DNA of 23,935 nt from a virus: the IMG/VR virus record IMGVR_UViG_3300012920_000262, positions 1-23,935 of that record. One strand, 5' to 3'. A model generated the notes under the pieces. It ran no database searches. It was not told the origin of the DNA and saw nothing but the letters and a program-made list of their open reading frames with translations. This document shows, one piece after another, positions 14,405 through 21,226 of this stretch (position 1 is the stretch's first letter; each line of letters begins with the position of its first letter). A program made the position numbers and the translations under genes.

Positions 14405-14412
14405 ACAAATAT

Positions 14413-14444
14413 AAAAAAAAAGCCACCTTAAAAAGATGGCCTTT
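14413..14444 (-). terminator. Strong intrinsic terminator between terminase and tail genes
   Basis: On the minus strand GCCATCTT and AAGGTGGC pair through eight positions (one G-U) around a 3-nt loop, and nine Ts follow (14421-14413). The G-U pair forms only in the minus-strand RNA, so that strand is favoured. It should stop transcription coming from the terminase operon, or from the promoter at 14546-14575, before the tail module. Confidence 0.88.
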
Positions 14445-14545: not shown

Positions 14546-14575
14546 CAAATATAAATATAATTATTTAATTACAAA
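14546..14575 (-). promoter_or_regulatory. Bacteroidota-type housekeeping promoter (TTTG - 18 nt - TATATTTG)
   Basis: On the minus strand TTTG (14575-14572) is followed after 18 nt by TATATTTG (14553-14546), a perfect match to the -7 consensus TAnnTTTG with the -33 TTTG at acceptable spacing. It lies in non-coding DNA after the terminase gene and points toward the terminator and tail operon. Such AT-rich DNA can produce the -7 box by chance; the paired box and non-coding location raise my confidence. Confidence 0.5.
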
Positions 14576-14631
14576 ACATTTTGCAACTTTTTTTTCTATA
14601 TCTTTTATTTTCTTATCTCTTCTTATCTTAT

Positions 14632-14664
14632 CTTAATGCTTAAGGGGGGCTTAAGCAATGCTTA
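14632..14664 (-). repeat. Three contiguous 11-bp iteron-like repeats after the large terminase gene
   Basis: On the minus strand, three 11-mers lie head to tail: TAAGCATTGCT, TAAGCCCCCCT and TAAGCATTAAG. The first overlaps the terminase stop codon. The second and third also form a stem, GCTTAAG / CTTAAGC, around a C5 loop. They are followed by a purine-rich tract with repeated GATAAG. A related array with the same 11-bp period, orientation and GATAAG flank lies inside the DUF1376-like gene at 20880-20912. The array marks the start of the only long non-coding gap in the window (14368-14661), so an origin-like or packaging-related role is plausible. Confidence 0.65.
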
Positions 14665-15885
14665 ATAAATGTAGTATTCTCCACCACTTTGTAGCTGGTA
14701 ACTAACTGCATATCTCAAAGCATCTAATGCGTGGTTGTAATTATCTACAGGTGTTTGTGATTTTCTTTCTAACCATACATAGTTATTTAATTCTTTGATT
14801 AGATCAGTACTATCACTATCTATTATTAAATCATAATCTTGTATCATACTAATACCATATGTTACACTACCTTGTCCTTTAATAGCTGGTACTATATTAC
14901 AATGTCTTGATAACTCATTAATTAATCTTGGTTCAGCACTATCACCAACAATTAAATCATTTCCTGCATACTTTACATTTAAGTTGGCTAATTCACTTGT
15001 AGTTAGTTTAGACTGATAGAAACACAGCTTAACATAAATAATCTTATTCTCTTTGTCTATGCTTGTTTTGACTAATGTACTAGGGTCGTTACTAAATCCA
15101 TAATCTTGGCCATAAACAACTTTATTAATATACTTAAATTCACCTATTGACCAATTAGAATATATAACCCCTTCTGCTTTGTCTAGCCAAGCACCTTGAA
15201 TAGTGTGCTTAAATCTATCTGGCCTTCTAGCTTGCATACTTTCTATTTGCTGTATGTAGCTGTTAGATAAATTATCTTTGTTATCTAGATATGTTGTGTG
15301 TATATAGGTAGTGTCATCTTTTGTTATATTGCTACCAGCTTGTACACCTCTACCTTCAAACCATCTTTGATATATAAAATGCTCTTTAGTTGTAGGGTTT
15401 AATATTAGTATTATTCTATTTTCTTGTGCTTTGTTTCTAACACTTAAATCTATCTTATCAAAAGTATCCTCATCTACTAATTCTTCTGCTTCATCCATCA
15501 CCCAAGTTGTGATGCCCTGTAGTGATTTGAGGTTTGCTGTCTGGTCTCCTGATGAGGTTTTAATACCTCTGAATATTATCTTGCTTCCATTACCTTTGTT
15601 AATAATCTCATCTTTGGTTATTTTAAAATCATCAACCTTATTAAGCATTTCAATCTTTTCTATGAATTCAGGTATGATAGATATATTTGCTGATCTTAAT
15701 GTATATCTAGTAAATAATATAGTGTGGCCTGCTTGATATGTTAGCAGTAGCAGTATGGTATTTATAGCAAATGATTTACCACTACCTCTACCACCTGTGA
15801 TAATAAAGTACCTTGCTTTAGATTCATCAAGTACTAAATACTTATTGTGTAGCTTTAATTCCTGCAATGAGTTTTCTGAAGTCAT
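14662..15885 (-). CDS. terL: Terminase large subunit, PBSX/XtmB-like (407 aa)
   Basis: The motor that packages and cuts phage DNA. The ATPase domain has Walker A GGRGSGKS at 31-38 and Walker B with TTWVMDEAEE, Asp131-Glu132. The C-terminal RNase H-like nuclease has Asp in YGQDYGFSNDPS near residue 250, Asp in IVGDSAEPRLINEL near 320, and NHALDALRYAV near 384-394. All expected acidic positions are present, so it should be active. The length of 407 residues is normal for the PBSX-type family. The gene overlaps the small subunit by 44 bp. Its stop codon lies in an 11-bp repeat array, and a 290-bp non-coding gap follows instead of the portal gene. Confidence 0.95.
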   Translation of the reverse strand: MTSENSLQELKLHNKYLVLDESKARYFIITGGRGSGKSFAINTILLLLTYQAGHTILFTRYTLRSANISIIPEFIEKIEMLNKVDDFKITKDEIINKGNGSKIIFRGIKTSSGDQTANLKSLQGITTWVMDEAEELVDEDTFDKIDLSVRNKAQENRIILILNPTTKEHFIYQRWFEGRGVQAGSNITKDDTTYIHTTYLDNKDNLSNSYIQQIESMQARRPDRFKHTIQGAWLDKAEGVIYSNWSIGEFKYINKVVYGQDYGFSNDPSTLVKTSIDKENKIIYVKLCFYQSKLTTSELANLNVKYAGNDLIVGDSAEPRLINELSRHCNIVPAIKGQGSVTYGISMIQDYDLIIDSDSTDLIKELNNYVWLERKSQTPVDNYNHALDALRYAVSYQLQSGGEYYIY

Positions 15886-19131: not shown

Positions 19132-19977
19132 TTATAATCCACAGTAACCAGAATCACATTCTGTGAAATCAGTTTCAAATAGTTCTGTTTGTGGTTGCCA
19201 TTTAATTACTTCATCATATGATAAGTTTTTTGATTTGTACCATACGTCTTTTTCGTGTTTTATTCTTTCTTTAGAAGCAAACCATTTGATTTTATTTGGG
19301 TGTTTTTTATACATAGTATTTATAAGTAAAGGTGTTTTATGAAAACACCCTACACAGTTATTCATCCAAGCAAATCTTACAGGCTTGTCTTTCCAATACT
19401 CCTCTATGTTATCTTTGTAAATATTATCTTTTATTAATGGGAATGTTGGCTTTTGCCATTCAATAACTCCCCATTTATTTCTTGTACCTCTTTTGCCTAC
19501 TATTGCTTTCATTTCTAAACAACCATTACTATTTGTTTTTGCAATAGTTCTTTTAGCTCTACCTTGTTCATTTGCTCTAAAACCAACATTAAATTTTGCT
19601 GGTTTATTTATATATTTTTGCCACCAGTAAAACATAGGCTCTAATTTCATTTGTGTTGTGCAATATCTTCTTAATGGGTCAGGTAAAGTTCCAGCAGTAT
19701 TTAAAACCTCATCAAATGTTTTACCAGTCACCCAATGTATTTCTTGACCTATAAACTGCTCTAAATCTAATATTGTGTTTATTATTACATCATCTTCTAA
19801 AGTACCAATAAACTCTGTACCTAATTTATCAGATACTAACTGCCTTACTTTTGCATCAGGATACATACAGCTTTTGTCATCTGTTCTTACTAATGCAAAT
19901 ACATTATAATCTGCTGGATAATTAGCAGCTATATATGCTGATGTTTTACCACCTGATATACTATTTACTGTTTTCAT
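19132..19977 (-). CDS. PAPS-reductase-like PP-loop enzyme (281 aa)
   Basis: The adenylating PP-loop SGGKTS is at residues 8-13 (MKTVNSISGGKTSAYIA). RRYCTTQMKLEP with Cys106 is the usual family signature in the middle, NEQGRAKRT follows, and the C-terminus carries NNCVGCFHK (Cys208, Cys211) and CDSGYCG (Cys274, Cys279), possibly for a metal or Fe-S site. Members activate a substrate with ATP, then transfer sulfur or reduce it. Phage members of this type are common but their substrates are mostly unproven. A neighbouring DNA methyltransferase and DNA-metabolism genes make a role in phage DNA or tRNA modification (compare DndC-like proteins) a reasonable guess. The gene overlaps the ATPase gene by 4 bp. 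Confidence 0.8.
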   Translation of the reverse strand: MKTVNSISGGKTSAYIAANYPADYNVFALVRTDDKSCMYPDAKVRQLVSDKLGTEFIGTLEDDVIINTILDLEQFIGQEIHWVTGKTFDEVLNTAGTLPDPLRRYCTTQMKLEPMFYWWQKYINKPAKFNVGFRANEQGRAKRTIAKTNSNGCLEMKAIVGKRGTRNKWGVIEWQKPTFPLIKDNIYKDNIEEYWKDKPVRFAWMNNCVGCFHKTPLLINTMYKKHPNKIKWFASKERIKHEKDVWYKSKNLSYDEVIKWQPQTELFETDFTECDSGYCGL

Positions 19978-20822
19978 TTTAATACATTTAAACCACCTAT
20001 TGTAAAACCTAATCCTTTGTTGTAATCAAAACACAAAGGTTTATCTAGTGTAGGTGTGCCACCAGTTTCCTTATCTTTAATTTTTTCTACTCTTACTTGT
20101 GTTAGCATCCAGCTTTCAGGTGAATTAATAAACCTGTGTATAGATAGAAATGAATCACATCTATTAGCAAACACTTGGCCACCTTCTACATCACTTTTTC
20201 TAGGTGGTTGTATGTAACCAGCATATTCGTGGTTTGGTGGATATACTCTCCTTGCACTTTCTGTCATTGGGTGTGTCATTACATATATTGCTTTACCTGT
20301 AGTATTGCAGAACTCTCTAATATCATTACATATTAAATAATTCCTTTCATATTGGTTTACTTTTCTATCGTGGTTTAATCCTGTAAATGGGTCAATAGCA
20401 CAAGCATCACAATCACTTTCTTTAAATAACTTAAGTAAATCTTTATGGTTGTACATTTTCTTGTTACTAACAAATGTGAACCATTTACCTATTTTATTGT
20501 TGTATTCTTCTATTTCTAGTTTGTTTAAATCTACTAATTTACTTTGTGAATACATTTGAATTAAATCTCTTGTTAATTGTCCTGCGCTATTTTCACCTGA
20601 CCATATTAACCACTTTACATTGTGCTTAACACTTAAACACAAAAAATACCATAACATAAAATTAGTTTTACCTACATTATCCAAGCCAACTATTACTGTG
20701 AAACTACCACGTTTGTGAACATACCACTTATCAAGCTCATTACCAATGCCTAAACCTCTTTGTATTTTACCTTCTTTAAATGCAAATAAGTATTTTAACT
20801 GTTCTTCTTGCTTTACTATCAT
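19974..20822 (-). CDS. RecA/DnaB-fold replicative ATPase, RepA-like (282 aa)
   Basis: Walker A is GLDNVGKT at 46-53 (FTVIVGLDNVGKTNFML) and Walker B is CDACAIDPF with Asp143. Further along are VMTHPM and QVRVEKIKDKETG, which resemble the core of hexameric RecA-fold helicases of the RepA/DnaB kind. At 282 residues there is no room for a DnaB N-terminal domain, so it may be a helicase core or a helicase loader. It follows a DUF1376-like gene with iteron-like repeats, with a 4-bp overlap, and this pair is the likely replication-initiation unit of the phage. Confidence 0.78.
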   Translation of the reverse strand: MIVKQEEQLKYLFAFKEGKIQRGLGIGNELDKWYVHKRGSFTVIVGLDNVGKTNFMLWYFLCLSVKHNVKWLIWSGENSAGQLTRDLIQMYSQSKLVDLNKLEIEEYNNKIGKWFTFVSNKKMYNHKDLLKLFKESDCDACAIDPFTGLNHDRKVNQYERNYLICNDIREFCNTTGKAIYVMTHPMTESARRVYPPNHEYAGYIQPPRKSDVEGGQVFANRCDSFLSIHRFINSPESWMLTQVRVEKIKDKETGGTPTLDKPLCFDYNKGLGFTIGGLNVLK

Positions 20823-21226
20823 TTTATAAAGGTTGTAGTAAGGTATGGGTCTTTATTATCTTTTTTTATCTTATCTTTTCTTAATGCTTGAGCATTGCTT
20901 GAGCTTTGCTTGTTTTGTGTGGTTTTACCACCTTTTCTGCCAGCATTAACTCTTTTAATGTGTGCTGCTTTTCTTTCTTCAAATTGTTCATCTAACCATT
21001 TAATTCTAATGTTATTACCATCTGATTTAAGTAATTGACTATCAAGTAGTTTGCTCCATTGTTTAGGTACTAGTGATTTTATTTGATCTCTGCTTACATT
21101 ACATTCTTTGCTCCAGTAGTAGCAACATATTTTCATAAATGCACCTTGCACATCTAAATCCATAAACATTATTGAACCTGTGATCCATTGGTTAGGATAA
21201 AATTTAAAGTATGGTAATTCTTTCAT
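20819..21226 (-). CDS. DUF1376-like replication protein (135 aa)
   Basis: Residues 1-75 have the layout of DUF1376 / replisome-organizer-like N-domains: YFKFYPNQWITGSIMFMDLD, then QGAFMKICCYYWSKECNVS and WSKLLDSQLLKSDGNNIRIK, a winged-helix-like domain. The C-terminal 50 residues are a basic, Gln/Ser/Lys-rich linker (RVNAGRKGGKTTQ and onward) that is probably disordered. Part of the linker is encoded by three contiguous 11-bp repeats (20880-20912), much as lambda O holds its origin iterons in its own gene. The gene is coupled to the ATPase gene by a 4-bp overlap. I infer origin binding and helicase loading. Confidence 0.72.
   Translation of the reverse strand: MKELPYFKFYPNQWITGSIMFMDLDVQGAFMKICCYYWSKECNVSRDQIKSLVPKQWSKLLDSQLLKSDGNNIRIKWLDEQFEERKAAHIKRVNAGRKGGKTTQNKQSSSNAQALRKDKIKKDNKDPYLTTTFIK
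20880..20912 (-). repeat. Three contiguous 11-bp iteron-like repeats inside the DUF1376-like gene
   Basis: On the minus strand CAAGCAAAGCT, CAAGCAATGCT and CAAGCATTAAG lie head to tail, in the linker-coding part of the gene. A purine- and A-rich tract with AAGATAAGAT follows, which could melt easily. A second array, with 24 of 33 identical bases plus the same AAGATAAG flank, is at 14632-14664. The arrangement resembles a phage origin built of iterons plus an AT-rich unwinding region. That the initiator is the protein encoded here is an inference. Confidence 0.62.

Follow-up and report, generated by a model that had tools for sequence, protein, structure and literature searches.

Do the 11-bp repeats found inside a small gene of this virus contig reflect the protein that they encode, or do they form a DNA element such as a replication origin? 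The contig, which is 23.9 kb long with genes on the minus strand, was analyzed over its whole length and is hereafter termed the window. An earlier note had reported three contiguous 11-bp repeats at 20880-20912, inside a replication gene and followed by an A-rich purine tract. This placement proved exact on the minus strand, where the contiguous units CAAGCAAAGCT (20912-20902), CAAGCAATGCT (20901-20891) and CAAGCATTAAG (20890-20880) lie inside an open reading frame of 135 aa (20819-21226) and adjoin an A/G-rich tract. The array is thus present as described, albeit in a different register: the third unit has only CAAGCA and a few bases in common with the others, and comparison with relatives favours 20915-20883, read as AAACAAGCAAA (20915-20905), GCTCAAGCAAT (20904-20894) and GCTCAAGCATT (20893-20883), followed by AAG. 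The first of these units is degenerate and missing from most relatives, and the iteron consensus drawn from 64 relatives is the 11-bp sequence GCTNAAGCANN. Behind this array, termed site 1, the tract AAGAAAAGATAAGATAAAAAAAGATAATAAAGA (20850-20882, minus strand) consists of imperfect (AAGAW)n pentamers, detected by Tandem Repeats Finder (TRF) as period 5 at 20856-20883, and is a candidate unwinding element. The same program gave the 11-bp array a score of 49, ranking fourth within the window. Against 20,000 protein-preserving synonymous shuffles, period 11 had a p value of 0.0016 and the best of all tested periods a p value of 0.0125; taken alone, the array is only modestly improbable.

The gene carrying site 1 (20819-21226, minus strand) encodes a replisome-organizer-like protein whose sole profile match is phrog_29280 (E = 1.7e-17). 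An N-terminal winged helix-turn-helix domain (approximately residues 10-100) precedes a short linker and tail, and the AlphaFold model shows this fold with a pLDDT of about 90 over residues 21-90 and a disordered tail. The protein is a truncated relative of the DUF1376-like phage proteins of 200-290 aa. The label "DUF1376-like", already applied in the earlier note, can be kept as a name only: a Pfam scan of the window protein gave no match and the curated cut-off of DUF1376 (PF07120) was not reached, the Baldr homologue scoring 30.0 bits for a threshold of 30.1, while 25 of 36 relatives match the domain weakly (best E = 2.8e-5) and distant relatives match DUF1376, Phg_2220_C and DUF7833, again weakly. 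Structural comparison returned generic winged helices, among which the origin recognition complex ranked first (Z = 5.3) and the DnaD N-domain scored Z = 3.7; matches this weak (Z under 6) indicate a common fold and not kinship. Foldseek detected nothing at E ≤ 0.001 beyond such generic winged helices, and a sequence search of solved structures with the family profile gave no match. A possible likeness to phage replisome organizers, which have a DnaD-like C-terminus (Phg_2220_C), comes from the three of 36 relatives that match Phg_2220_C and from the DnaD N-domain structures among the matches cited above. The window protein does not have this C-terminal domain, by which the helicase might be recruited, and we count this against the origin reading. 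Immediately downstream, and overlapping the gene, lies a RecA-like DNA primase/helicase gene (19974-20822, minus strand; phrog_18375, E = 1.4e-24; PF13481, E = 3.5e-4), itself followed by a phosphoadenosine-phosphosulfate-reductase-like gene (19132-19977). The modelled DNA-binding fold and the adjoining helicase gene are both features of known in-gene origins, and we predict on this basis that the protein is an initiator.

In order to separate DNA-level from protein-level constraint, we gathered 80 viral relatives by protein similarity, 64 of which differ by more than 2% and formed the non-redundant set. Over codons 108-123 of their alignment, spanning the repeats and the A/G tract, synonymous change was nearly nil, the codons AGC, GCA and TTA being invariant (64/64 each) and AGA nearly so (63/64). 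The observed to expected ratio of synonymous diversity fell to 0.026 in this 16-codon block as compared to a gene median of 0.54 in 16-codon windows; in the helicase gene the median was 0.66 and the minimum 0.34. Amino-acid diversity was not reduced (0.185 in the block versus 0.152 over codons 1-100), and protein constraint is therefore not the cause of the synonymous freeze. Instead of following the codon frame, the variable bases mostly fall on a grid of 11 bp (GCTNAAGCANN) or 5 bp (AAGAW): in the repeat part they are mainly the fourth and the last two (10-11) bases of the unit, and in the tract T and A alternate at the fifth base of AAGAW, at bases that fall on codon positions 3, 2 and 3, with two further tract positions also varying (G to A/T). 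The in-gene repeats are thus regularly spaced and constrained as DNA. Comparing relatives for conservation of the period but not of the amino acids had been proposed in the earlier note, and this is the outcome that we obtained, synonymous sites remaining frozen while amino acids change. Its companion claim, that the linker can vary freely, was overturned, the linker DNA being the most constrained stretch of the gene. Viral contigs yielded 113 occurrences of the motif that were examined; 108 of them lie inside the initiator gene, and the other five comprise two truncated gene copies at contig starts, one ORF with a similar linker (L113) and two non-coding copies.

The sequences flanking the block are variable. 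Behind the conserved block, the initiator tails of the relatives (L001-L080) are of at least four interchangeable types, namely DPYLTTTFIK, KYANDNLL..., EPYMSTDS... and the long C-terminal domain of L030 and L046, and this places the block at a module junction. In one relative (L031:3371-3799) the N-terminal domain of the initiator is strongly diverged, with linker and block identical to those of the window, which points to a recombination junction immediately upstream of the block.

The earlier note recognized the in-gene element but overlooked a second copy of the same bipartite element in the window, at 14583-14666 on the minus strand, just after the terminase gene. A scan allowing up to three mismatches returned seven hits, all at site 1 or at 14637-14668, for 0.26 expected. 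At this site 2, the iterons ATTAAGCATTG (14666-14656), CTTAAGCCCCC (14655-14645) and CTTAAGCATTA (14644-14634) are followed by the A/G-rich pentamer tract AAGATAAGATAAGAAGAGATAAGAAAATAAAAGATATAGAAAAAAAAG (14583-14634; TRF period 5 at 14599-14635). The full element, TTTATTAAGCATTGCTTAAGCCCCCCTTAAGCATTAAGATAAGATAAGAAGAG, starts at the stop codon of the upstream gene and is otherwise non-coding. This gene (14662-15885, minus strand) we take from its sequence to be the terminase large subunit gene, its identity to annotated or homologous terL genes being weak (25-31%). Site 2 tracts are 63% A and 0.3% C with a 5-bp period, and at both sites the tract is nearly C-free; an A+T-rich, strand-asymmetric tract thus lies beside the iterons, for which an unwinding role is predicted. 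The non-coding copies show 11-bp autocorrelation (0.62 versus 0.25 when shuffled) and, in the tract, 5-bp autocorrelation (0.75 versus 0.45), and their variable bases fall into the 11- and 5-bp spacing as well.

In 33 of the 45 relatives with terL 3' ends, the core of site 2 lies no more than 330 bp from the terL stop codon. Thirteen of 18 near-full-length contigs (29-32 kb) have two same-strand copies, and two have three, the third being due to overlapping contig ends (118 bp exact in one case, about 1.1 kb nearly exact in the other), so that every one of the 15 matching contigs holds exactly two. The remaining three gave no motif match and have an initiator of a related type, with four iterons and a different tract. 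A reversed control pattern had no match in the near-full-length contigs. The copies are 3.9-7.0 kb apart (nine genomes). Directly downstream of site 2 in the window, a Bacteroidota-type promoter-like TTTTG-N18-TATATTTG (14546-14576, minus strand) could be read by eye, as could an intrinsic-terminator-like hairpin with a T run (14410-14443, minus strand) that separates site 2 from the next late gene.

The 11-bp phasing extends well beyond close relatives. Homologues with 27-43% identity occur in isolated phages of Leeuwenhoekiella, Flavobacterium and Cellulophaga, where repeats of other sequence occupy the equivalent position and keep the 11-bp step, as in CAAAAGCAATG CAAATGCATTA CAAAACGAATG CAAAAGCAATG followed by a purine tract; isolates with this in-gene layout include Arctus_1, morran9-1, phi10:1 and Nekkels_1. 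A profile search added 80 more distant loci. By eye, 11-bp-phased units precede an A/G tract in about 50 of 55 non-redundant distant genes. Their autocorrelation peaks at period 11 (0.53 versus 0.39 when synonymous codons are shuffled), with p ≤ 0.05 in 42 of 54 genes. These tests are not independent since the genes are homologous. A second site was looked for in Arctus_1 and morran9-1 and none was found; in most other distant relatives one site was found, and site 2 iterons may have diverged beyond the patterns used. One distant genome (G032) does carry a second copy, in a 100-bp non-coding gap between two structural genes (L320:1160-1300), with three 11-bp GCAWTGC units and a pentamer tract. 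These units are of the iteron type of its own in-gene site, which suggests that a phage-specific protein reads both. In addition, Arctus_1 (L235:8547-8580) and morran9-1 (L236:14708-14724) display further iteron-like stretches some 180 bp farther upstream, still within the initiator gene, in its winged-helix-coding part.

The frozen synonymous sites, the 11-bp period in distant homologues and the non-coding copy argue for the interpretation as a replication origin already advanced in the earlier note, and have to be weighed against other functions. The two sites could be transcriptional operators bound by the initiator or by another phage regulator, site 2 activating or repressing the late promoter just downstream and site 1 autoregulating the replication operon. 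The promoter-like sequence about 10-20 bp past the site 2 tract, similar in many relatives, speaks for this, as does the fact that initiator-bound origins are often also regulatory. However, site 1 lies mid-operon with no such promoter nearby, the promoter or gene downstream of site 2 lies at a distance that differs between genomes, and an operator alone leaves unexplained why a long A/G pentamer tract is conserved on a fixed side of the iterons. We consequently judge an exclusively regulatory role improbable, and note that site 2 may have a regulatory effect on the adjacent promoter-like sequence. The position of site 2, which abuts the terminase gene and in most relatives starts at the stop codon of terL, could also designate a packaging signal (pac or cos) recognized by terminase. 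With two such sites 4-7 kb apart, however, the genome would be cut twice. The copy that single-copy relatives retain is the one in the initiator gene, and site 2 of G032 lies between two structural genes; we regard this explanation as very unlikely.

An RNA-level element (hairpin, translational control or frameshift signal) would benefit from the palindromic character of units such as GCTTAAGC, which could pair mutually. The predicted folds are however ordinary for their composition (z = -1.2, -1.9, -0.5 and +0.4), the site 1 iterons of the window (GCTCAAGC) break the palindrome and both alternative sense frames are interrupted by stop codons in the block, so that we regard such an element as extremely improbable. 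It could finally be argued that the block has no function as DNA, being either a coincidental protein-coding repeat, in keeping with the modest improbability of the array alone, or a module junction homogenized by recombination, in keeping with the L031 chimera joined upstream of the block and with the position of the block between variable linkers and variable tails. Homogenization would not retain amino-acid-changing differences while synonymous ones are absent, as the block does; moreover, conservation in the non-coding copies obeys the 11- and 5-bp grid seen at site 1, and the distant families have the period, not the sequence, in common. An absence of DNA function is thus a highly unlikely explanation. 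On the points raised against each, the packaging site, the RNA element and the recombination artefact were rejected.

We consider it very likely that the window carries an origin inside the gene of its own initiator, together with a second initiator-bound site, in an organization similar to those of lambda O and SPP1 gp38. Site 1 is probably one origin of a pair. The N-terminal winged-helix domain of the initiator would bind the 11-bp iterons, with core GCTNAAGC, and since there is one iteron per helical turn these would all lie on one DNA face; lambda iterons are longer than one turn. The strand-asymmetric, A-rich AAGAW tract beside them would then be unwound, and the product of the next gene, the RecA-like helicase/primase, would be loaded. 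Site 2 would be bound by the same initiator, either as a second origin or as a fork-stall or late-replication site comparable to SPP1 oriR. The constraint at DNA level, the bipartite anatomy, the two copies per genome and the 11-bp phasing throughout the family are observed here; protein binding, melting, helicase loading and origin activity are inferred by analogy with SPP1, lambdoid phages and P1. GC skew, a check suggested in the earlier note, was uninformative and lends support neither way: in the window and in nine complete or near-complete genomes it is monotonic and shows no switch at site 1 or site 2, as would be expected of genomes with all genes on one strand. It is conceivable, though rather unlikely, that the AAGAW tract is a strand-specific single-stranded DNA code read by the initiator, a phage counterpart of the bacterial DnaA-trio, and that site 2 links the early-to-late replication switch with late transcription. 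If true, a self-contained cassette in which the initiator gene is the origin would be common to a large Bacteroidota phage family.

Among the closest parallels is the Bacillus phage SPP1, in which oriL lies in gene 38, oriR is intergenic among late genes and gp38 binds the repeats of both (PMC6316719). Here too, one site is inside the initiator gene and a similar one lies in the non-coding late region, direct repeats adjoin a predicted AT-rich unwinding element, and helicase functions are encoded beside the initiator. In contrast to SPP1, the iterons are contiguous 11-bp units with an AAGAW pentamer tract, the phages form a Bacteroidota family and the sites are 4-7 kb apart instead of about 13 kb. 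The likeness concerns the layout of sites and genes and not initiator sequence kinship, binding being predicted here. The same holds for lambda and lambdoid phages, whose ori, made up of iterons with an AT-rich tract beside them, occupies the central part of the initiator gene O, next to the helicase-loading gene (PMC7466680); the resemblance is again one of layout, not of initiator family, lambda having four iterons (six in Stx phages) and no second in-genome copy being described. In phage P1, oriL likewise lies inside an initiator gene, repL, and synonymous changes in its AT-rich part impair replication (PMC9948254); RepL is a different protein, and the abstract describes no 11-bp iteron array.

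The assignment of these phages to Bacteroidota hosts rests on the isolates carrying distant homologues, on the promoter type and on one Bacteroidia MAG contig matched by the distant-family profile; a search of GTDB genomes with the window protein gave no match. Replication origins of Bacteroidota phages appear to be little studied, and we found no description of this element in the open-access papers searched. Its bipartite signature, in which 11-bp iterons in a DUF1376-like linker are followed by AAGAW pentamers, would provide hundreds of unannotated phages with a predicted origin and a predicted initiator at once. With two closely similar copies per genome, the paired-origin role known from SPP1 becomes directly testable in a second lineage, and the in-gene layout is available in isolated phages of Leeuwenhoekiella, Flavobacterium and Cellulophaga. 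A related initiator type, observed in L113, L128, L160 and L186, carries four 11-bp units, GCTTAAGCAGG GCTAAAGCATC GCTAAAGCAAG GCTCAAGCATT, with a different tract behind them.
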